DNA of 64,000 nt, from NCBI RefSeq assembly GCF_000016665.1, contig NC_009523.1, positions 1,054,001 through 1,118,000 of the forward strand, given 5' to 3'. Source of the stretch: Roseiflexus sp. RS-1 (GTDB lineage: Bacteria; Chloroflexota; Chloroflexia; Chloroflexales; Roseiflexaceae). This document shows positions 1-50,643 of the stretch, piece after piece (within the stretch, counting starts at the first letter, position 1; each line of letters starts with the position of its first letter). A program made the position numbers and the translations under genes. Below the pieces are notes generated by a model that saw only the letters and a program-made list of their open reading frames with translations, was not told the origin of the DNA and did not search any database.

Positions 1-682
1 CGCAGAATCCGCAGCGCGCCGCGAGCGCCGTGAATGTCTGGTACTCGAAATAGTGCATGTCACTCAACCGCTGCATATCACGAAACGCAGCGCCCTGCTT
101 GCTGCGCCCGCGGCGCGCGATCAACCATTCGGCAAACGGGCGCGGCATCCAGTTGATCCCCCGCATATGGTAGTGCGGATCGATCCAGGCTCGTCGGTTG
201 ATCACCGTTATCAGCGCCACGCCACCAGGGCGCAACACCCGCGCAATCTCGCGCAGCACCTGTTCCGGCGACTGCACGTGCTCAATGACATCCCAGCATA
301 CCACAGCATCGAATGCTGCATCAGGCAACGGCAACGCTTCGCCAGCGGTGTTGATCACCGGCACGCGCAGGTGGTAACGCGCCGCGCGCAGCAGAATGAT
401 CCGACAGTAGGCTGGATTATATTCGCTGGCGACAACCTGCGCGCCACGTAGCGCTGCCGCAACCGCAAAGCCGCCCATGCCGGCGCCGAGATCGAGCAGT
501 CGCACTCCATCGACCCGTCCGGCAATCTGTTCCAGACGGGCAAGCCGGTCGCTCTGGTACGCTTCCTGATTGATGCGCCGCTCGCGCCAGCGCGTAAAGT
601 CGCGCCGCCAGCGCATATGCCGCAGCCAGGGATCAATCGCCTGCTCGAGTTCGGTTGGTACAGCGGATGGTTGGGTCATCAT
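1..682 (-). CDS. Class I SAM-dependent methyltransferase (3' end outside window)
   Basis: The visible reading frame starts at ATG 682 and runs off the left edge, giving about 227 residues. The SAM-binding motif I is LLDLGAGMGG (about residue 60), followed by an acidic residue after strand 2 (ASEYNPAY) and a motif IV-like segment, AVVCWDVIEHVQ. These are typical of the Methyltransf_11/23 fold. The substrate cannot be told. The start codon overlaps the stop of the upstream membrane glycosyltransferase gene as ATGA, which suggests translational coupling in one surface-polysaccharide operon. Methylation of a sugar or lipid carrier is a reasonable guess only. Confidence 0.85.
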   Translation of the reverse strand, partial: MMTQPSAVPTELEQAIDPWLRHMRWRRDFTRWRERRINQEAYQSDRLARLEQIAGRVDGVRLLDLGAGMGGFAVAAALRGAQVVASEYNPAYCRIILLRAARYHLRVPVINTAGEALPLPDAAFDAVVCWDVIEHVQSPEQVLREIARVLRPGGVALITVINRRAWIDPHYHMRGINWMPRPFAEWLIARRGRSKQGAAFRDMQRLSDMHYFEYQTFTALAARCGFC

Positions 683-2844
683 GGTTGAGAGTTCAACGTA
701 TAACCGGTTATATGTATGTTCAACGCTACAATGCTCAGATCACGTCGGGATTGCGGGTCATACGTCGTCGGCGCACGCAGGCGCAATCGGGTCTGTCCCG
801 GCGGTGCAGTCACTCCTATGCGATAGGTGCGTACCGAACGCGGTGCCTCCCAACGCGCGATCAGCCGCCGATCCTGCCACAGTTCCACCGGTCGCGCCGT
901 CTCGTAAGACGCCAGGGTCAACGCCAGCGTCACATGGATTGGCGCATCATACGGGTTGACCAGCCAGATCGCGTTGTCGGCGCTCCCCCAGCGATGCCGA
1001 CCGTTATCGTTGCGCTCCACGTCGTCCCATCCTTTGCCTGCATACACGAAGGGACGGCAGGCGTCGGCGAACCGGGGCAGTTCGTACCGGCGATACTGCG
1101 CATCCTCATACACCGGCGTCGGCGCATGCCCGATCAACCTTCCGAGCGTTTCCGCGACCTGTTCCTGCTCACGCGCCGTCGTCAGGTCGGTGCGCACCAC
1201 CACGTGGCGCACCGGCGCGAAACACTGCATCGCTCTGACCGTGGATTGGTCGAGCGGAACAATATCTGGCTGTAATGCTTGCATTGTTCCAATGGCGCGC
1301 AGCAGCGGCATATTGAACGTCTCATACGCCGGTCGGCGCGCGATGAACCCGCCGATGATTGGTTGACCGTGGACGATCTGATTCCGTAAGGTGCGGCTTG
1401 TTTCGAGCACATCGAGCGGCAGGTCGGCGACGGCGCCGGGGCGCGCTGCAATCTGTTCGTACACCGCCGGGCGCTCCAGCGGCAGGAAGACGCGCCCTGA
1501 CGGCAGCCAGAGTTCGAACAACCCTGCCATTACCGCTCCTGCTACCGGTAGCATGCGCCAGACATCTGGCGTCCCCCGGCGCAACTGCGCCAGCCCCTGC
1601 GCCGCTGCGATGCTCATCACCATCAGCACCGGCGCGATAAACAGCGCTGGCTTGCGCGCTGTCCCGAACAGCGGAAGCCGATCAAGCAGCGCATACGGCA
1701 TTGGGATGCCCGTGTCCTTCCCCAGGATGTGCAGACCAGGACCCATCGCCAACACCCAGAGCACGATGGCAGTGAACGCCAGGTGCCGCTCGCGCCGCCA
1801 GACGGTTCGCGCGCCGATAATCGCCAGCGCCATCAGGGTCCATCCCGCCGGAACATACCAGACGCTTGGAGCGAAGTATTCGGCAACCGGGCGCATCCAT
1901 TGCTCGACCTGCGCCCCCCACAGCGGTTGGTACACATTCGGAAAGAATAACCCGAACAGGTCGACCGACGAGTTGTACACATATGCTTCCAAGATCGCGT
2001 CACGCGCCTGGTGACCTATCGGTAATACGTCACGCCGCATAAGCATCCCGGCGAGAAACGGCGCCAGCAGGATCAGCGTTCCAATCGCAAACAGCGCATA
2101 ATGGCGGGCGAGGATCAGGCGCTCACGAACTGCTGCGAACCGTGCAGCCATCCATACAATTGTAAGTACGCCACAGATCGATGCCCAGTACCAGTCGGAA
2201 AGCACGACCGGCGCGGCGATTGCCGCAGCGCATGCAATGCGCCAGCGCTCCGCGCCGCGATCCAGCAATGCCAGGGCGTAGATATAGAACGGGATCCAGT
2301 GCAGGCTGAACAGGTTAAGGTGGCTGTTCTGCAACTGTGCGATGTGGAGCGGTCCGAGCGTAACCAGCACACCGCACACCAGCGCCTCCCAGAATCCGCG
2401 CACATAGTGGTAGGCGAGCAGAAAGACGCCAAACCCGGTCAGCGCAAAACCCAGCAGCACCGCTGCGTTGAACGCCGCCACCGGACCCGCCAGCAGATAG
2501 ACCGGCAGCGTAAGCACTGCATTCGGCGCGCTGAGCGTTTGCACATACAATTGCACGCCGTCCGGGTAGAAGAGCAGGTCGGTCCAGAACGGGTTGGCGC
2601 CGTGCAGGATCGCCTCGCTCACCCACCAGAGATGCCACAGATGCAATCCAGCTTCTTCGCCGCCAGCAAAGTCGAATCGCCCTGGCGCGCCGTCGATTCC
2701 GCCGAACAGAAGCCGGTCGAAATGCAACGCCAGGGGCCAGGTGACAATCAGCGCCAGCAGCACGTAGCATCCGAGCGCCAGCGCATAGATGGCGGCGATG
2801 CGGCTGCTGGAAGGAGCCGCCCGCTCAGCAGACGAGCGCTTCAT
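679..2844 (-). CDS. Polytopic membrane protein, glycosyltransferase-C-like
   Basis: The protein is about 721 residues. It has a first membrane segment near residues 17-40, many further hydrophobic helices to about residue 450, and a soluble C-terminal part. Acidic residues in the first extracytoplasmic loop (FDFAGGEEAG) fit a GT-C fold, as does the family-like segment PFWTDLLFYPDGVQLY, but the donor and acceptor are unknown. The frame is open to 2880. I prefer ATG 2844 because it follows GGAAAG and avoids overlap with the upstream stop. The last 110 residues form a beta-rich tail ending in LRLRAPTTYDPQSRRDLS, nearly identical to the tail of the next gene upstream. Confidence 0.75.
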   Translation of the reverse strand: MKRSSAERAAPSSSRIAAIYALALGCYVLLALIVTWPLALHFDRLLFGGIDGAPGRFDFAGGEEAGLHLWHLWWVSEAILHGANPFWTDLLFYPDGVQLYVQTLSAPNAVLTLPVYLLAGPVAAFNAAVLLGFALTGFGVFLLAYHYVRGFWEALVCGVLVTLGPLHIAQLQNSHLNLFSLHWIPFYIYALALLDRGAERWRIACAAAIAAPVVLSDWYWASICGVLTIVWMAARFAAVRERLILARHYALFAIGTLILLAPFLAGMLMRRDVLPIGHQARDAILEAYVYNSSVDLFGLFFPNVYQPLWGAQVEQWMRPVAEYFAPSVWYVPAGWTLMALAIIGARTVWRRERHLAFTAIVLWVLAMGPGLHILGKDTGIPMPYALLDRLPLFGTARKPALFIAPVLMVMSIAAAQGLAQLRRGTPDVWRMLPVAGAVMAGLFELWLPSGRVFLPLERPAVYEQIAARPGAVADLPLDVLETSRTLRNQIVHGQPIIGGFIARRPAYETFNMPLLRAIGTMQALQPDIVPLDQSTVRAMQCFAPVRHVVVRTDLTTAREQEQVAETLGRLIGHAPTPVYEDAQYRRYELPRFADACRPFVYAGKGWDDVERNDNGRHRWGSADNAIWLVNPYDAPIHVTLALTLASYETARPVELWQDRRLIARWEAPRSVRTYRIGVTAPPGQTRLRLRAPTTYDPQSRRDLSIVALNIHITGYTLNSQP

Positions 2845-2848
2845 AACG

Positions 2849-4846
2849 TTACTTGCTTTCCGTAGCAGTGTAATCTGCAAGCTGCACCTTCAGTGCTATA
2901 ACGCTTAACTCACGCTGCGACTGCGGGTCATACGTCGTCGGCGCACGCAGGCGCAATCGGGTTTGTCCCGGCGGTGCGGTCACTCCTATGCGATAGGTGC
3001 GCATTGGGCGCTGCACGTCCCAGCGCGCGATCAGGCGTCGATCGTGCCACAGTTCCACCGGGCGCGCCGTCTCGTAAGACGCCAGGGTCAACGCCAGCGT
3101 CATATGGATTGGCGTATCATACGGGTTGACCAGCCAGAGCGTGTTGTTGGCGCTGCCCCAGCGATAGGCTAAGGAACCGGCATATTCAGTAGCATACCAG
3201 CCTCTTCCCAGCGCAACCCATGGACGGGAGCGATCAAGAGTTGATTCTTCGGGTCGATCTCTGTGGTTGCATTCTATTACCATGCCTAATTGCCCTGGTG
3301 ATGTAATACGCTTGCAACTTAAATCAGGATAGCGACTCTCCAGGAGACGCTGTACGTTTGCATCATTTGTAAACACGTATATGGGCTTCTTTGATCGAAT
3401 CCAGCTCTTCTTTATTTCTAGGTTAGGAGATTTATGCCATTCTTTTAATGTTTTTCCGTAAATTTCTAACCAATAGTCGAGATATCTCGGCATTGCCATC
3501 TTATCCCACTTGTGAATTATGAAGATAGATTCCTCCTGGCAAATCTCAGCAAACTCTTTCATAAGTGCGGATGGTTTATAATAATTCTGGTAATAATTGT
3601 TTGTAATGTCTTGTAAATGCCTTCCAGATTCTAAATTTGATAGCAGGATTCTATCGCGATATACTACTGAAAAAGTAAATGAGATGATAGCGGCAAGAAA
3701 GATCAATACGAGAGAAATAGAAGTAAATCGAACATTGAAACCTTTGATTGCTTCTTTCAGAGATATACCCCCGATCATAGAGAAAGGGATGACTAATGGA
3801 ATAAATGTTCGGTCAAACGGTTTGTCACCCCTAAGAGCACTCAATAAGAATGGAAGTACCATTAATACCAGAAGTAGATAAAAAACGTTGTAATCCCGGT
3901 TTCTATCCCTGAAAATCTTCATAAGTCCATATAATACTGGTAAGAGTAGTAAAAACCGTTTTGAGATGAGATGTCTGAAAAATGCAGGCATAAGTTCTGT
4001 TAATGTACTCAAGTTGGGCATTCCTGATGTTCTTGTCATATTGTTGTCGATTACTTTTGGAAGGATGGGGATATACCAGATTGTGGCGATGGCGATGCCT
4101 GACATAATCATGATCGCCAGCTTTATCTCGCGGTTAGTCGTTAATTTTCCGTTAGTTCGGACGTTTTTATTTCTCAAACTCGAAAACAGATACCTTGATA
4201 ACCAATAAATGAAAATAGGCGCGATAATGTATATATTTGATGGGATGGTATAAAAAAGCAAAGAAGTCAGTATTATGACTAAAGATCCACTTATCCTGCT
4301 TCCACCCGTATAATAATGTAATTTATAGTATAAAATCATTCCGAGCAGTGTCATGCTCAAGGTATAGCCTCTAACCTGAACAGTGAAGTTTATGAAAGGA
4401 AGAGTTGATCCCAGGATAATAACTGTAAAAAATCCTGCTATCGGACCAAAAAAGTCTCTTACAGTCCTATAGACGTATATAAACGTCAAAAATGTGTAAA
4501 AAAGCATTAATAAGCGGATTTTCCACGGTTCTCTAAGTAAATCGAAATCATCGATGCCGAATCCGTTCAGATAAAAGTGGTTTAGTATGTTGGCGAAAAT
4601 ATGATTGTTTGGCGCGCGATAGTCGGTTACAGTCGTTGATATCGGAACAAACACAAAATGATGTAGTGTATAAATCTCGTCATGCCAGAAATCGAGATTA
4701 ATGTATGCGGCAATGATATAAATAATCCATGGCAATGTGGCTGCACACGCCATGAGCGTCCACACGAGATCCGAACGAGGAGACAGACTCTTCGCTGGTC
4801 TGTCTGATAATATAGAATGAGTGGACGTGTCTTTATACGAGTTCAC
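2849..4846 (-). CDS. AT-rich polytopic membrane glycosyltransferase-like protein with host-type C-terminal tail
   Basis: The protein is 665 residues. It has many transmembrane helices over residues 30-400, a soluble domain, then a C-terminal tail from about residue 555 (GSANNTLWLVNPYDTPIHMT) almost identical to that of the downstream gene. An Asp-His pair follows the first helix (NLDFWHDEIYTLHHF), as in GT39/GT-C enzymes that use lipid-linked sugars at the outer face of the membrane. The first 550 codons are strikingly AT-rich, with many AAA, ATA and TTA codons, unlike all neighbours. The tail is GC-rich like the host. I read this as a transferred gene joined to a resident 3' end. The exact reaction is unknown. 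Confidence 0.8.
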   Translation of the reverse strand: MNSYKDTSTHSILSDRPAKSLSPRSDLVWTLMACAATLPWIIYIIAAYINLDFWHDEIYTLHHFVFVPISTTVTDYRAPNNHIFANILNHFYLNGFGIDDFDLLREPWKIRLLMLFYTFLTFIYVYRTVRDFFGPIAGFFTVIILGSTLPFINFTVQVRGYTLSMTLLGMILYYKLHYYTGGSRISGSLVIILTSLLFYTIPSNIYIIAPIFIYWLSRYLFSSLRNKNVRTNGKLTTNREIKLAIMIMSGIAIATIWYIPILPKVIDNNMTRTSGMPNLSTLTELMPAFFRHLISKRFLLLLPVLYGLMKIFRDRNRDYNVFYLLLVLMVLPFLLSALRGDKPFDRTFIPLVIPFSMIGGISLKEAIKGFNVRFTSISLVLIFLAAIISFTFSVVYRDRILLSNLESGRHLQDITNNYYQNYYKPSALMKEFAEICQEESIFIIHKWDKMAMPRYLDYWLEIYGKTLKEWHKSPNLEIKKSWIRSKKPIYVFTNDANVQRLLESRYPDLSCKRITSPGQLGMVIECNHRDRPEESTLDRSRPWVALGRGWYATEYAGSLAYRWGSANNTLWLVNPYDTPIHMTLALTLASYETARPVELWHDRRLIARWDVQRPMRTYRIGVTAPPGQTRLRLRAPTTYDPQSQRELSVIALKVQLADYTATESK

Positions 4847-4893: not shown

Positions 4894-6993
4894 CTACGGC
4901 GTGACCCGCACGTCAGTAATCGCCACTCCGCCATACCACGGCGCCGTCTCCAGATCGAGCAGTCCTGTTGCACTTGTGAACCGCACTGTCAGTTCGGGAT
5001 TGTACTCACATTCGCGTATACCTGATAGCGAAAGATGCACCTCCTGCGGCGCTCCGGTCAGCGTGACCCGCTCGTGGATGTTCCAGTCATCAAGCGAGAT
5101 GTCAACCACACGTCCAGTCGGTCCATGCATGCGCACCTCCAGCTGCCCGCACCCGCCGCGCACTCGCACTCTTCCCTCTCCCAATGTCCAGCGCCCAACG
5201 GTAAGATCGGGAGTGGCGGGCGCGAACCCGGCGTAGAACCCGAGCGCAGCGGGATCGCCGGGAATGATGCGATCCGGCGCGACGCCCTGCTGGATGTTCC
5301 ATGCCCATTCCAGCAGATCGTTGCCGGTGCGCCAGTAGCCGTCGATGGCACGCAGCGCCGCTGCCGCTTCCGCCGGATTGTCGAGCGCCGCAGCGGTGAG
5401 CACGCGCATTGCCTGCGCGTATAGACTGCGATGTTCCATCGACGCTGCCAGGCGGTAGAGTTCCAGCGCCCGCTCATTGTCGCCCTGCGCCAGATAGAGA
5501 TCGGCAAGGTCGATCACGCGCAACGGGTTGTCGGGAGCGACTTCTCGCGCCCGTGTCAATAACCTGCCAGCCCGATGAACATCACCCGCTGCGAGCGCTG
5601 CGCGTCCCGGCACAGTATACCGAAGACTTTCGATCCACGAGATGTAGCGGGTGCTGAACATGAACGCCAGGAAGATCATTGCCCCGATCAGCGCCGCGTA
5701 ACTGCGCCGGTCGCGCAGGAGTCGATCAGGCTGCCGCCATAGTGCTGGCAGCCTGACCAGCGCATATGCTGCGAATGGCAGAACCGCCGCCACAACCGGC
5801 AGGCGCAGACGGGGATGTCCAATCGTCAGCGCCGCCAGCAGTGTCGCCAGCCCGACCCACAGTAATGTCGGCACAGCGCGCGCAGGTTGCGGCATGAAGC
5901 AGAATCCGCCGATTGCCAGCAACATCAATGCAACGTACTGTGCATCCGCCAGTGCGGTCAGTTCCAGCCGATATTCACCCGCATTCTGCACGATTGGCGC
6001 GCCGCGTGAGTCGATCGAAATGACATCGCCAACCGCATAACTGCGCGTTTGAAGCGCGTAGAGTGATGCGATCTTGAAGCGCATGCGGGTGAGAAACCGC
6101 ACCGGATCGTCACGAATATTATCCCACGCCATGCGCAGGGCAAGCGTCTGCCGGTCGGCAAGGTTCGGAACCGCTGCCAGGCGCGCCTCGCCTGCCGCCT
6201 GTTCGGCGTCATCGCGCACAGTACCGTACCACATACTGATGCCGCCATTCGTATCGCTCACGATCAGGCGACCGTGCACCAGATAATTCCGCCCCGCCCA
6301 CGGTCCGATGACCAGCATTGCGCCCAGCAGCAGGAGGATCGCCGGATGACGCCAGCGCCATACCGGATACCCGTCGGACCAGGCGCGCCATGCCATCCAT
6401 GCCGCCGCCAGCGGGATCAGATACACGCCAACCGCGCGCGTCAGCGCCGCAAGCGCCAGGATCACGCCAGTGCCGAACGCCATTCGCCCGCTTTTGCGTT
6501 CAATCGCGTTGTTGAGCGCCGTCAGACCGGCAACCAGAAGGGTTACAAACAGCGCCTCGGCGTAGAGCGAACTGGCATACGATGCCAGCGGAATAAAGAT
6601 CGCTGCCAGCAACGCCGTGACCAGACCGGTGATCCGCCCGAAGAGGTGCGCGCCACATGCGTAGAACGCCAGCACCCCGACGCTCAAGATGCACGCCTGG
6701 ATCAGCAACGCACCGGCGACATGCATCCCGGCTGCCGACAACAGGAGCGCCAGAAATGCCGGATAGACCGGCGGACGCAACCACTTGCCGGTGTCGTGGT
6801 AGCCGCCGTGCAGGATATGGATGGCTGCGCGATAGTACTCTTCCGGATCACCAGGCGGCACAGCGCCAGAGCGCGCCTGGATCCACCAGAACCAGAGACG
6901 CATGACCAGCGCCAGCACAACCACGGCAACCAGCGCGATCCGGCTGGCAGTCGGCAGAGCGCGCGCATTCCGCAGCGTATGATGATCGAGCAT
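4894..6993 (-). CDS. ArnT/PMT-like membrane glycosyltransferase with TPR segment
   Basis: The protein is 699 residues. A first transmembrane helix (residues 19-37) is followed by an acidic loop motif, PPGDPEEYYRAA, and a pattern WLRPPVYPAF typical of PMT_2/GT39-family lipid-linked glycosyltransferases. About ten more helices extend to residue 450. A soluble region with at least two TPR-like helical pairs (AGRLLTRAREVAPDNP and DLYLAQGDNERALELYRLA) then leads into a beta-rich end. It probably transfers a sugar from a polyprenyl phosphate donor at the outer face of the membrane, but the acceptor is unknown. The ATG follows AGGACG. It lies 7 bases after the upstream DUF2079 gene in the same operon. 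Confidence 0.85.
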   Translation of the reverse strand: MLDHHTLRNARALPTASRIALVAVVVLALVMRLWFWWIQARSGAVPPGDPEEYYRAAIHILHGGYHDTGKWLRPPVYPAFLALLLSAAGMHVAGALLIQACILSVGVLAFYACGAHLFGRITGLVTALLAAIFIPLASYASSLYAEALFVTLLVAGLTALNNAIERKSGRMAFGTGVILALAALTRAVGVYLIPLAAAWMAWRAWSDGYPVWRWRHPAILLLLGAMLVIGPWAGRNYLVHGRLIVSDTNGGISMWYGTVRDDAEQAAGEARLAAVPNLADRQTLALRMAWDNIRDDPVRFLTRMRFKIASLYALQTRSYAVGDVISIDSRGAPIVQNAGEYRLELTALADAQYVALMLLAIGGFCFMPQPARAVPTLLWVGLATLLAALTIGHPRLRLPVVAAVLPFAAYALVRLPALWRQPDRLLRDRRSYAALIGAMIFLAFMFSTRYISWIESLRYTVPGRAALAAGDVHRAGRLLTRAREVAPDNPLRVIDLADLYLAQGDNERALELYRLAASMEHRSLYAQAMRVLTAAALDNPAEAAAALRAIDGYWRTGNDLLEWAWNIQQGVAPDRIIPGDPAALGFYAGFAPATPDLTVGRWTLGEGRVRVRGGCGQLEVRMHGPTGRVVDISLDDWNIHERVTLTGAPQEVHLSLSGIRECEYNPELTVRFTSATGLLDLETAPWYGGVAITDVRVTP

Positions 6994-12672: not shown

Positions 12673-15354
12673 ATGGGTATGACCCTGTTTCTGTTGGGTT
12701 TGCTGATCAGCGGCAGCGCAGCGATTGTTCTGGCGCTTGTCATCCTGCAGCATCGTGAAGCCAACGGCGCTCTTCCCTTTGCGCTGGTGATGATCGCCAG
12801 CGCAATCTGGGCGTGGGGCTATGCCCTGCAGATCAGTGCAGTGTCTCCCGAACTTGCTCTGCTTGCCGTGCGGATCAGGTACATTGGTCTTCTTGCCGTC
12901 CCAGCGTGCTGGCTCTGGTTTACGCTGATCTACACCGAAACTATCGCGCGCCTGACGAAGAAACAGGCGGCGATGCTGGCATTCTTCCCGGTGTTGACCT
13001 TTGTGGTGAACGTCACCAATGACTGGCACCAACTCTTCTACCGACGCATCAGTGTGATGCCGCCCGGTTCGTCGCTCGTTGTGACCTTTGAATATGGTCC
13101 CTGGTACTGGCTCAACGTTGGCTATTCCTACCTGGTTGTGCTGATTGGACTCTGGGTGCTGATCCGATTCTGGGGGCGGGCGCTGCGTCTTCATCGAATG
13201 CCGATCGCTGTGACAGTCGGCGGGTTGTTTTTTCTGACGGCCATCGGGTTGATCTTCTACATCAGTCGTCAGTTTGCCGGTGTCTTCGACATCACACCGC
13301 TGTTGCTGCCGGTGAATGGAATATTGCTCTACCTGGCATTGTTCCGACCCAGGCTGTTTGATGCGCATCCCGTCGCCTATACGCACCTGTTCGAGCAGTT
13401 GAACGACGGGGTGCTGGTGTTCAATATGCAGGGCAGGGTGATCGATTGCAATCCGGCGGCATACCGCCTGCTCGGTCTGACGAATCCCGTCGGGCGACCG
13501 GTTCAGCTTGTTCTGCAGCATATCCCTCAGCTGGCGCAAACCGGTTCGAGCGTTCTGCTCGAAGAGCCGCTTCGTCTGGAGTACAACGAACAGGTGCTCG
13601 ATGTGCGCTCGACCATCCTGCGCGACCGCCGTGGACAGCAGAGCGGATATATGCTGGTGGTGCGCGATGTCTCAGAGCAGTGGCGAACGCAACGAGCGCT
13701 TGCCGAAAGCGAAGCCATGCTGCGCGAAGAACGCCGACTGTTCATCGGCGGACCGACAGTGGTCTTTCGCTGGGAAGCTCGACGCGACTGGCCCGTCTCA
13801 TACGTCTCCCCCAACGTTCAAGAGCAGTTTGGATATGCGCCGGAAGATTTCACCGCGCACAGACTCAGCTATCCCTCGTTGATCCATCCAGAGGATTATG
13901 TGCGGATCAACCGCGAAATTGTCCATTACCTGCACCACAAGACGACCTGGTTTCGTCAGGAGTACCGCCTGATGCGCGCCGATGGCGAGTATCGCTGGGT
14001 CGATGATTATACATCTGTCGTGTACAACGATCAGGGGAAGCCGGTCTATTTCCTCGGTTATATCCTCGATGTCACCAACCAGAAGCGCGCCGAAGCCGAG
14101 CGTCTGGAAATGGAACGCCAGTTTCAGCACACCCAAAAACTGGAAAGTCTTGGCGTGCTGGCAAGCGGCGTGGCGCACGACTTTAATAATCTGTTGACGG
14201 CCATTCTCGGCAACCTCGACCTTGCGCTCCTGACCCTTTCCCGCAACGACCCCGCCGCTCAACCGATTCGCAATGCGATGCTGGCAACGCGCTACGCAGC
14301 CGGATTGACGCGCCAGTTGCTCGCGTATGCTGGCAAGGGAAATTACCAGGTCACCGATGTCAATCTGACCGAGATAGTCCAGGGTATGGCAGCAATGCTG
14401 CGGGTCTCAGTCGGCAAACAGGCGCGCCTGGAACTCCGCCTCGCTCCCGATCTGCCGGTCTTTCAGGCAGATCCATCGCACATCCAGCAGATCGTGCTCA
14501 ACCTCATTCTCAACGCCGCTGAGTCGCTCCCTTCCGGCGAAGGCACGATCACAGTGCGCACCGATGTCCGTGATTGTGATGAAGCGTTTTTGAAGCGCAA
14601 CCGTATCAACAACCAGGCGCCGCCGGGTCGCTACCTGCTGCTGGAAGTCGCCGATACCGGATGCGGCATGGACGAACGTACCCAGCGGCGCATGTTCGAC
14701 CCCTTCTTCACCACCAAAGCAGTCGGGCGGGGGTTGGGCATGTCGGCGATCCTGGGCATCGTCCGGCGCCACCACGGTGCGATCATTGTCGATAGCGCTC
14801 CTGGTTGCGGAACAACGATCACTGTGCTCTTCCCGCCGTCTCCCGTCGAGCGCGACAGCAACGCGGATCGCGATCAAGAATCGTTGCCTCCTGCTCCGTC
14901 TACGACCGTTCTGGTCGTCGATGACGAAGCCGACGTGCGCGATGTGACTGCGCGACTGCTCACCCATCTCGGCTTTCGGGTCGTTGTGGTTGCGGACGGC
15001 GCTTCCGCGCTTCAAGCGTTGCAGGAACAGTCTTCAGAGATTGCGTGCGTCCTGCTCGATGCGAACCTGGCGGGTATGGATGCGCCGACCACCCTGCGTG
15101 AACTGCGCGCGCTTGCGCCCCACATCCCTGTGGTTGTGTCGAGCGGGTACAGTCAGCACGAGGTGTTGCAACGCTTTGCGGGCCAGACGATTGAAGGGTT
15201 TATTCAAAAGCCATATCAGATGTCCGAGTTATACGGCGTTCTCCAGCACGCATTGCGGCAGTTCCTGACGGTTACCGTTGCCGATCAGCCTTCAGCCGCT
15301 GATGCAGCCCCTGCAACGCAAGAAACGCCGGACGCGGACTCCAGTCCGGATTGA
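12673..15354 (+). CDS. Hybrid sensor histidine kinase: 7TM - PAS - PAS - HisKA - HATPase - receiver
   Basis: The protein is about 893 residues. Seven membrane helices (about 1-225) match the 7TM region of histidine kinases (IRYIGLLAVPACWLWFTLIYT). A PAS domain follows (GVLVFNMQGRVIDCNPAAYRLLG), then a PAS_3 domain with the LIHPEDY motif. The phosphoacceptor His is in SGVAHDFNNLLTAILGN near 500. The ATP-binding boxes are N (NLILNAAES), G1 (DTGCGMDE) and the PFFTTK/GRGLGMS region. A receiver from about 743 has VVDDEADV and the acceptor Asp in LLDANLAG near 795. It signals by phosphorelay, with the ligand unknown. An earlier start at 12598 is possible but adds a non-membrane stretch. Its 3' end overlaps the next convergent gene by 83 bases. 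Confidence 0.88.
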   Translation: MGMTLFLLGLLISGSAAIVLALVILQHREANGALPFALVMIASAIWAWGYALQISAVSPELALLAVRIRYIGLLAVPACWLWFTLIYTETIARLTKKQAAMLAFFPVLTFVVNVTNDWHQLFYRRISVMPPGSSLVVTFEYGPWYWLNVGYSYLVVLIGLWVLIRFWGRALRLHRMPIAVTVGGLFFLTAIGLIFYISRQFAGVFDITPLLLPVNGILLYLALFRPRLFDAHPVAYTHLFEQLNDGVLVFNMQGRVIDCNPAAYRLLGLTNPVGRPVQLVLQHIPQLAQTGSSVLLEEPLRLEYNEQVLDVRSTILRDRRGQQSGYMLVVRDVSEQWRTQRALAESEAMLREERRLFIGGPTVVFRWEARRDWPVSYVSPNVQEQFGYAPEDFTAHRLSYPSLIHPEDYVRINREIVHYLHHKTTWFRQEYRLMRADGEYRWVDDYTSVVYNDQGKPVYFLGYILDVTNQKRAEAERLEMERQFQHTQKLESLGVLASGVAHDFNNLLTAILGNLDLALLTLSRNDPAAQPIRNAMLATRYAAGLTRQLLAYAGKGNYQVTDVNLTEIVQGMAAMLRVSVGKQARLELRLAPDLPVFQADPSHIQQIVLNLILNAAESLPSGEGTITVRTDVRDCDEAFLKRNRINNQAPPGRYLLLEVADTGCGMDERTQRRMFDPFFTTKAVGRGLGMSAILGIVRRHHGAIIVDSAPGCGTTITVLFPPSPVERDSNADRDQESLPPAPSTTVLVVDDEADVRDVTARLLTHLGFRVVVVADGASALQALQEQSSEIACVLLDANLAGMDAPTTLRELRALAPHIPVVVSSGYSQHEVLQRFAGQTIEGFIQKPYQMSELYGVLQHALRQFLTVTVADQPSAADAAPATQETPDADSSPD

Positions 15355-16549
15355 GGATGCTGAACGACGCCTGCTCGTGCTGCGGGTTGCCCTGCGCTCC
15401 CCACAGAACCGCAAAGTTCATATTCCACAAAAACATCGCCCCGACCCACGGACGTCCCTGCTCATCACGGTACTGTTCATACACCCGCGTGATGGCGCGG
15501 ATGATATAGTCCGCCTGATCCTCAAATGTCAGCAGATTGCCGAACTCGAACCCTGGAGTCGTGTTAGGCGTCGCCCATCCGTACTCGGTAATCCAGATCT
15601 GCCGATCACCGAGACCATGCGCGATCATCAGGGCGCGCACATTCTCAACATGGCGAAAGTAGTGGGTCGGGTGATCGTTCCATCCCGGACGGTCACCGGG
15701 AAGATCGGGGTAGAGCCAGTCGGGCGAGTTTGCCGCGCCGCCGGGGTGCACCGCCTGCGCATCGAAATAGTCGCGGATCATGCCGTTTTTGTAGGTATAC
15801 ATCGCGCGCAGGTAATCAATGTCGGGAACCGCGCGATTCGGGTCGGATACGCCGGTAGAAGCTGGCGCGGCAGCCAGCACATACACATTGGGGTTGATCG
15901 CCTTAATGCGGCGGTAACATTCCGCCAGCAATTCGACGTATCGCCCCGGGTCTTCGGGGGTCACCCGACCGCCATTTTCGACTGCCAGGTTCGGCTCGTT
16001 CCAGATTTCAACGGCAGCGATCCGATCGCCGTAGCGTTCGACCATGGCTGCCACAAAATTGCCCATGACAACCGGATCGTATGGTTTACCGCCATTCCCC
16101 GGCGCATAGAATGGCGGCGACTGCACAATGTTGATCAGCAGGCGTATGTCGCTGGCCGCCACGTCGGCAACGATATGGTCGAGTTCATCCCAGTAGTAGA
16201 CGCCCGGCGCCGCTTCGATATCCTTCCAGTGCACCTGCTGGCGCACCCAGTCGAAACCGGCAATGTTCGTCAGCATCAATACCCGGCTGCGATCGGTGTA
16301 GTACAGGTGCGCCACCACGCCGAATTGCAGCGCAGATGTGCGCAGGAAACGCACCTGCGGCGCTGCTGTTCCGATTGTATCTGTGGGTATGGGCAACACC
16401 GGCGTTGCGTTGTCCGTTGGTCGCGTCGTGGTTGTCGGACGTATCTCACCCAGCCCCGGTTGGGTCAACGGATTCGTCGTCGATGATCCACAGGCGACAA
16501 GCCACCCGAACACCAGCAATAAACAGATCAAACGAGTGTGATAGTGCAT
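15272..16549 (-). CDS. Secreted lipoprotein, glycoside hydrolase-like (TIM barrel)
   Basis: The protein is 425 residues. The N-terminus is a lipoprotein signal (MHYHTRLICLLLVFGWLVAC) with Cys 20 as the lipidation site, followed by a Ser/Thr/Pro-rich linker. The catalytic domain resembles clan GH-A. VEIWNEPNL near residue 180 holds the acid/base Asn-Glu pair, and IWITEYGWATP near 315 holds the likely nucleophile Glu. GH39, GH5 or a related family is likely. It is probably anchored at the cell surface and acts on polysaccharide. The gene is convergent with, and overlaps, the histidine kinase gene. Confidence 0.82.
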   Translation of the reverse strand: MHYHTRLICLLLVFGWLVACGSSTTNPLTQPGLGEIRPTTTTRPTDNATPVLPIPTDTIGTAAPQVRFLRTSALQFGVVAHLYYTDRSRVLMLTNIAGFDWVRQQVHWKDIEAAPGVYYWDELDHIVADVAASDIRLLINIVQSPPFYAPGNGGKPYDPVVMGNFVAAMVERYGDRIAAVEIWNEPNLAVENGGRVTPEDPGRYVELLAECYRRIKAINPNVYVLAAAPASTGVSDPNRAVPDIDYLRAMYTYKNGMIRDYFDAQAVHPGGAANSPDWLYPDLPGDRPGWNDHPTHYFRHVENVRALMIAHGLGDRQIWITEYGWATPNTTPGFEFGNLLTFEDQADYIIRAITRVYEQYRDEQGRPWVGAMFLWNMNFAVLWGAQGNPQHEQASFSILNPDWSPRPAFLALQGLHQRLKADRQR

Positions 16550-49217: not shown

Positions 49218-49377
49218 AGGTCAGGACCCTTGCTCTCTGATCGATTGCGCGAATGTCCTCATCCTGCAACAGACATGATCACGTTTTGTCCTGGACGGCG
49301 CGTGTATATTTTATTCAGTGGAAGGCGTCCGTTTGCGCAACCCGGACGTCGCTTCCTATTGTACCACTCTGCGATTG

Positions 49378-50643
49378 ATGCGTTTCACGGCGTTCCGTGA
49401 GAGGAGGACAGGGAATGGTTCATCTGCGTATCACGCCCATCTTTCACCGGCGCTGGTTGCGGTTATGCTCGTATGTATCACGCTGCTGTCGTTCACTCCA
49501 TCTGCATCTGCGCAATCGGCGCCGCCGCGACGCCCCTGTTCGTTCGATGATCCCAGCGGATGGGTCACCTGCTCACCCTACTATCTGTACCGCCGACCGA
49601 GAGAACTGAAGGATGTCTATTTTACGCGCTACTACCCTGAGACGCGGCATAATCTGTATCTGCCCTTTCTGAAGTACTGGGATCGTATGGGAGGATTGCC
49701 GGTCTTCGGGTACCCCATCAGCGAAGCGTTTCTGGAGCAGATCGAGGGGCGCTGGTACATGGTTCAGTATTTCGAGCGTCAGCGCTTTGAATGGCACTAT
49801 GATCCGGACAATCCCGATCATTATCGCGACGATTATCCTTCGAAGGAATACTGGTTGCCGCTGGCGCAGAGTGTCCGTCTCGGTCGGCTGGGAGTCGAGG
49901 CGCTGAGCCGTCAGGGGCGCGACTGGCAAACATTTCCGAAGGGTGATCCTGCGGCGCCGCACTTCTTCCAGGAAACGGGGCACGCAATTGCGCCGGAGTT
50001 CTGGGGATACTGGTCGAGCCACGGGCTGGAGATGGATGGCAGACCCGGCTTTTCCAGCGCTGAGAGCCTGGCGCTGTTCGGGTATCCAATCTCTGAAGCG
50101 CAGGTCGAGCATGGGCGTCTCACCCAGTGGTTCGAGCGGGCGCGGTTCGAGTATTTCCCGGAATTTGCCGGAACGCCGTATGTGGTTCAGCTGGGGCTTC
50201 TGGGCAGGGAACTGGCAGAGGAACGGAGCGGGGAAGAACCGTTCCTGCCGACGGAGACGCTCAGTATGGCCAACGCTGCCAGGCAACGCATGCTGCTGGC
50301 ATCGGGTCAGGCGCTCCAGCGTCCGCTAAAATCGCGCCCGGAGTTGCAGGCGGCGGCTGATCAGGTTGCCGCAGAATGGAGTGACGCATTCTTCAACGGG
50401 AGCGATGTCAGGAAGAGCATGGAGCGCATAGGCGCGACATATGCCAGTATGGGGAATTCTCTTGCACCGTCGATGTGGGGCATTCACCCCCATGACCCGA
50501 TTGGGGGAATAATGAATAGGATGCGGTCAAATTTCTCCGATGACGGTCGTCATCTCATCGCGCTGACCATCGGCGTGTATGGTCCTGTCTGGTACCTTGA
50601 TACGCCGGTCGTGCCCATGGTTTTTATCCCGGAATGGGAGTAA
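49378..50643 (+). CDS. Secreted protein with two LGFP-like FGYPIS repeats
   Basis: The protein is about 421 residues. A hydrophobic signal (LVAVMLVCITLLSFTPSASA, cleavage after Ala) leads into a mature part with two similar modules: GLPVFGYPISEAFLEQIEGRWYMVQYFERQRFEWH and LALFGYPISEAQVEHGRLTQWFERARFEYFP. These resemble LGFP-type cell-surface repeats common in Chloroflexota. The C-terminus after about 290 is unrecognised. The best RBS (AGGAGG, 49402-49407) serves ATG 49415, which is in another frame, so I took ATG 49378 in the long frame. A truncated copy lies at 55924-56814. Confidence 0.72.
   Translation: MRFTAFRERRTGNGSSAYHAHLSPALVAVMLVCITLLSFTPSASAQSAPPRRPCSFDDPSGWVTCSPYYLYRRPRELKDVYFTRYYPETRHNLYLPFLKYWDRMGGLPVFGYPISEAFLEQIEGRWYMVQYFERQRFEWHYDPDNPDHYRDDYPSKEYWLPLAQSVRLGRLGVEALSRQGRDWQTFPKGDPAAPHFFQETGHAIAPEFWGYWSSHGLEMDGRPGFSSAESLALFGYPISEAQVEHGRLTQWFERARFEYFPEFAGTPYVVQLGLLGRELAEERSGEEPFLPTETLSMANAARQRMLLASGQALQRPLKSRPELQAAADQVAAEWSDAFFNGSDVRKSMERIGATYASMGNSLAPSMWGIHPHDPIGGIMNRMRSNFSDDGRHLIALTIGVYGPVWYLDTPVVPMVFIPEWE

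Follow-up and report, generated by a model that had tools for sequence, protein, structure and literature searches.

A predicted C-terminal beta-sandwich domain shared and exchanged between genes with unrelated bodies at a Roseiflexus glycosyltransferase locus

A chimeric membrane protein gene and its neighbours

The window analyzed here is a stretch of 64,000 nucleotides of Roseiflexus sp. RS-1 (NC_009523.1, positions 1,054,001 to 1,118,000), whose genome (G000) is a single contig of 5,801,598 bp. Close to its left edge lies a gene, here called GT, which encodes a GT-C-like polytopic membrane protein followed by a soluble C-terminal domain (CTD), and which is flanked by the gene N, by the conserved gene X and by a methyltransferase gene (Table 1). 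The order X-GT-N is found in RS-1 and in the Roseiflexus 629F.7 MAG (G001), while G005 has X-GT1-GT2-N and the G004 contig reads GT-N-methyltransferase; G001, G004 and G005 are all draft or MAG assemblies.

Table 1. Coordinates of features at the GT locus, numbered from the first base of the window
Feature	Position	Strand	Remarks
GT, chimeric gene	2849..4846	-	ORF, 665 aa; polytopic membrane protein of GT-C-like type, predicted beta-sandwich domain at C-terminus
GT body	3166..4846	-	AT-rich, GC 0.37, GC3 0.40; unrelated to N
Candidate catalytic loop motif FWHDEIY	4670..4690	-	residues 53-59, first loop of GT body
GT tail segment common to N	2868..3165	-	ungapped and BLASTN match; sharp edge at 3165/3166
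CTD of GT	2852..3235	-	CBM6/35-like beta-sandwich model
N	679..2844	-	721 aa polytopic membrane protein; order-wide family carrying the CTD
Tail segment in N matching GT tail	698..995	-	matches GT 2868..3165
CTD of N	682..1050	-	in G000 and G001 groups with GT tails; not so in G004 and G005
X, upstream neighbour	4894..6993	-	conserved; PMT_2 and TPR, 699 aa
Methyltransferase, downstream	2..682	-	conserved; clipped by window edge
832-bp block	2904..3735	-	100% identical to G001; with one mismatch extends to 3856

The GT protein resembles GT-C glycosyltransferases of the PMT_2 type in being polytopic, with hydrophobic segments running to residue ~395, in carrying an acidic motif in its first loop and in having a soluble C-terminal part. 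It differs from them in its score, since the Pfam match to PMT_2 (PF13231; residues 108-218, E 0.0027) reaches 18.3 bits and thus falls below the gathering score of 26.1 bits; judged from the sequence, homology beneath this cut-off is plausible. Both D56 and E57 of FWHDEIY are invariant in five of five GT copies, and from what is generally known of the GT-C family we take this to be the catalytic motif. A structure model of the full-length protein was too poor for use (pLDDT 45.7).

The initial annotation had described an AT-rich gene whose 3' end was nearly identical to that of its neighbor. The repeat is real. In a BLASTN comparison of the window with itself, 2889-3165 matches 719-995 over 277 nt (88.1%, E 1e-97), and without gaps the match extends to 2868-3165 versus 698-995 (86% over 298 nt). 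"Nearly identical" nonetheless overstates a resemblance of 232 in 261 positions (89%, 2905-3165), and the proposed boundaries 2925-3169 are one base off: the register between the two genes is +2170, and 756-1000 therefore pairs with 2926-3170. At 3165/3166 similarity drops from 89% to 37%, the latter value applying to the 100 nt upstream of 3165 and being close to what unrelated sequences give. The description of the remainder as AT-rich and unrelated to N was borne out, as was the proposal to look for a break in composition and codon use. GC content is 0.37 in the GT body, 0.60 in the last 280 nt and ~0.62 in the flanks, while codon adaptation to the neighboring genes is 0.45 for the body and 0.69 for both the GT tail and N. 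Composition and codon use break at the same edge as the tail match. The first 40 codons of the body are less AT-rich (GC 0.51).

No Pfam family matched the GT tail, and by sequence it does not belong to CBM6 or CBM35, its best PDB sequence match having an E value of 0.39. Nevertheless, 28 tails can be aligned, G-W, E, R-W, N and G being invariant among them, and AlphaFold2 predicts an all-beta sandwich for the GT tail with a mean pLDDT of 95.5 over 128 residues. In this predicted model the tail has the beta-sandwich jelly-roll fold of CBM6/CBM35 modules, with Z scores of 9.7-10.2 over 106-114 residues (VIA-align). It differs from these modules in being only 10-16% identical to them, in falling outside any Pfam family and in sitting on membrane GT-C-like proteins. 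DUF7024 (PF22895) was considered as the identity of the CTD and rejected, as two members matched weakly and no genome of the genus Roseiflexus had a match. Judging by the predicted fold, the CTD may bind glycan or substrate, and it might serve to keep a glycan or a lipid-linked substrate at the outside of the membrane.

Distribution and origin of the fusion

The combination of GT body and tail is also found in G001 (90% amino acid identity), in G004 (46%) and in G005, where a tandem pair is present (48% and 50%). The bodies in G001, G004 and the two copies of G005 have GC contents of 0.39, 0.48, 0.48 and 0.41, always lower than N. Outside Roseiflexus, relatives of the GT body are mostly less than 30% identical over long stretches, and the CTD was found on none of them in the 15 loci examined, whereas N-type genes with the CTD are spread through the order. 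Given the joint occurrence of body and tail in four Roseiflexus genomes, the tail-less relatives elsewhere and the order-wide CTD of the N type, the simplest reading is that the fusion arose within Roseiflexus or its ancestor.

The chimera is therefore old within the genus and not a recent strain-level event; a recent swap specific to RS-1 is ruled out by the presence of the fusion in four genomes. The initial annotation had proposed a local recombination at the 3' end of GT and had expected that the same body and tail would not be found together in unrelated genomes. The chimera and repeated exchange stand, though not as a recent local swap, and the expectation holds in part, because orthologues with the AT-rich body and this tail are present in three other Roseiflexus genomes, with none found outside the genus. 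As for the body itself, our search for an AT-rich donor yielded none: the closest relative from beyond the genus shares 28% identity with it and, with a gene GC of 0.59, is not AT-rich. The foreignness of the body consequently rests on its composition, which suggests that it was probably imported from elsewhere.

Tails and bodies with different histories

Under concerted evolution, paralogous tails within a genome should be at least as alike as orthologous tails between genomes, and this is what we observed. Over 2905-3165, the GT and N tails agree at 232/261 positions in G000 and 236/261 in G001 (89-90%), compared with 226/261 (87%) for the orthologous N tails of these two genomes. In the 100 nt upstream the relation is reversed, with 37 and 36 matches between GT and N versus 92 between the N orthologues. 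A two-block mosaic inside the G000/G001 tail core was not significant (p 0.27).

Concerted evolution also predicts conflict between trees of the tail segment and of the gene body, and such conflict is present. In the body tree the four N genes form one clade (100/100), and C172 of G005, another member of the family, pairs with its G001 orthologue (100/100). In the tail tree, the GT tails are joined by those of N in G000 and G001 and by that of C172 in G005, with the G004 and G005 tails of N falling outside this group. A single clade of the four N tails was rejected in three row sets (AU p 0.0076, 0.035 and 0.010). When N tails from across the order were added to root the tail tree, neither N nor GT emerged as the donor; of nine added outgroup loci, four were left out of one analysis on account of a wrong reading frame, and in another a stricter filter kept two of nine.

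C172 of G005 provides one tail replacement whose direction can be read from the sequence comparison. Its orthologues agree at 54-85% in the body, the N-terminal block aside, and at 39-51% in the tail. As the ordinary C172 tail is borne by the G001 orthologue, by the sister gene G035_C40 and by a relic in G000, it is C172 of G005 that has received the replacement. This gene also has an extra stretch of 14 residues, RMASASATGRDEQH, at the tail junction. The relic of RS-1 (L124 ~4422-4830; G000:C1:750421-750830) is of the C172 type, with a start-like head adjoining an ordinary C172 tail; since head and tail lie next to each other in different frames with no body between them, the C172 body appears to have been deleted.

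Tandem or clustered N-type arrays of other genera served as controls. In ten such arrays, measured with a rough automatic tail boundary that was misplaced in several genes, tails were 43-52% identical versus 44-62% for bodies; none showed clear homogenization, and the tail was never more than 3 points above the body. By the same measure, tails versus bodies were 77% versus 36% for GT and N of G001 and 76% versus 63% for GT1 and GT2 of G005. Homogenization is therefore not a general property of the CTD.

Further signs of recombination were seen at and around the locus. The 832-bp block identical between G000 and G001 spans AT-rich body and tail of GT alike; elsewhere these genomes are 90.8% identical over 46 kb aligned, in which this exact run is unique and the next longest is 137 bp. 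The pattern points to a recent exchange between lineages or to an artefact of the MAG (strain switching). In G004, a repeat of 374 nt (L043 1-374 and 2015-2388, 89.6%) crosses a gene border, comprising tail (245/280) and, from the next gene, the head (90/94, 96%), so that in the GT of G004 a body of its own is framed by an N-like head and the shared tail. Some caution is warranted with these assemblies, as the G004 contig starts in a tail and ten Ns lie inside the GT2 tail of G005, both breaks being linked to the repeat.

Uneven divergence along the gene was also noted elsewhere in RS-1. In the gene at 49318-50640 of the window, identity to G001 is 75% in the last 110 codons versus 95% in the remainder, possibly another replacement of a 3' end, and the gene at 15275-16549 has the reverse pattern (body 83.5%, last 110 codons 95%). 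The P2 orthologues (G000 L046 3891-6029; G001 L048 3583-5676) are mostly 79-92% alike, with a C-terminal part at 50-66% and a further divergent patch at about codons 200-280.

Repeated copying of a shared tail

Tails have been copied between neighboring Roseiflexus genes several times, by real recombination of an already known kind. Our preferred account, to which we assign a probability of roughly 0.8, is that an AT-rich body joined the cluster, was fused to an N-type CTD, and that tails were later copied between genes. A GT-C-type AT-rich body would have entered the X-N-methyltransferase cluster of Roseiflexus before the four carrier genomes split, and would have been fused with the CBM-like CTD of the N-type family already resident there. 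Thereafter, adjacent genes would have had stretches of homology in their CTD-coding 3' ends, at which homologous recombination, mainly gene conversion and presumably of the RecA type, repeatedly copied tails among N, the copies of GT and a further member of the family. Genes with unrelated bodies would in this way have come to have tails in common.

Alternatively, GT might have arrived with its CTD from another bacterium and then, in the lineage of G000 and G001, replaced the tail of N with its own, which would make N the converted gene. GT tails track GT bodies in the four genomes and may form a single clade (p-AU 0.157), and the N tails of G000/G001 differ from those of G004/G005 although the N bodies are orthologous. 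These same observations make the direction given in the initial annotation, a resident tail moved onto a foreign gene, a tentative one, as it is the N tail that varies between lineages. Arrival with a CTD is, however, rather doubtful in view of the resident-like GC content and codon use of the tail and of the GT body relatives elsewhere, which lack the CTD. Conversion of the GT tail into N is also compatible with the fusion and later copying that we propose.

Artefacts of MAG assembly, such as strain switching or repeat collapse, are an unlikely source of the 832-bp identity and of the tandem patterns. The draft state of G001, G004 and G005 would fit such artefacts, as would the location within tails of both the gap in G005 and the end of the G004 contig, but the GT/N tail repeat is evident within the single contig of RS-1, contigs run on across the junctions of C172 and N, and the 832-bp run has no rival in length over the 46 kb. 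Quite improbable, in our estimate, is a locus acting as a cassette, in which resident head and tail segments flank exchangeable GT bodies, and recombination between repeats duplicates, reorders or replaces whole bodies in Roseiflexus populations. Bearing on it are the different places of the GT1 orthologues in G004 and G005, the N-type head and shared tail of the G004 GT, and the two bodies in tandem in G005. Finally, the notion that there was no exchange, the tail being the slowest-evolving part of ancient paralogues whose bodies diverged past recognition, draws on the CTD being a real, conserved domain but is hardly tenable and was set aside on the conflict between trees, where N bodies that are orthologous have different tails (AU p 0.008-0.035), on the ten arrays elsewhere, where conservation of the tail does not exceed that of the body, and on the change of GC content and codon use at the same edge.

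Concerted evolution, or partial gene conversion, between prokaryotic paralogues is known, as PMC6053082 and, for RF1/RF2, PMC4530459 describe. There too, one part of a gene is kept alike and the remainder differs; relative to those cases, the Roseiflexus bodies appear to be of different families, and only the CTD is shared and exchanged. Hybridization between hot-spring bacterial lineages is described for Yellowstone Synechococcus in PMC12755884, with blocks exchanged between diverged lineages in a common habitat, as may be the case here; Roseiflexus differs from that account in showing one such block, in a MAG. Within the literature library searched, nothing was found on gene conversion in Roseiflexus glycosyltransferases.

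The initial annotation had also suggested that tail swaps diversify the surface polysaccharide. This is without support: what is exchanged is an accessory domain, a CBM-like sandwich, and the motif presumed to be catalytic is part of the body. What the locus does offer is a clear bacterial case of an accessory domain passed between genes with unrelated catalytic bodies, which related arrays elsewhere do not show. It also draws attention to a CBM-like CTD that Pfam misses and that membrane glycosyltransferase-like proteins carry throughout an order of Chloroflexota.
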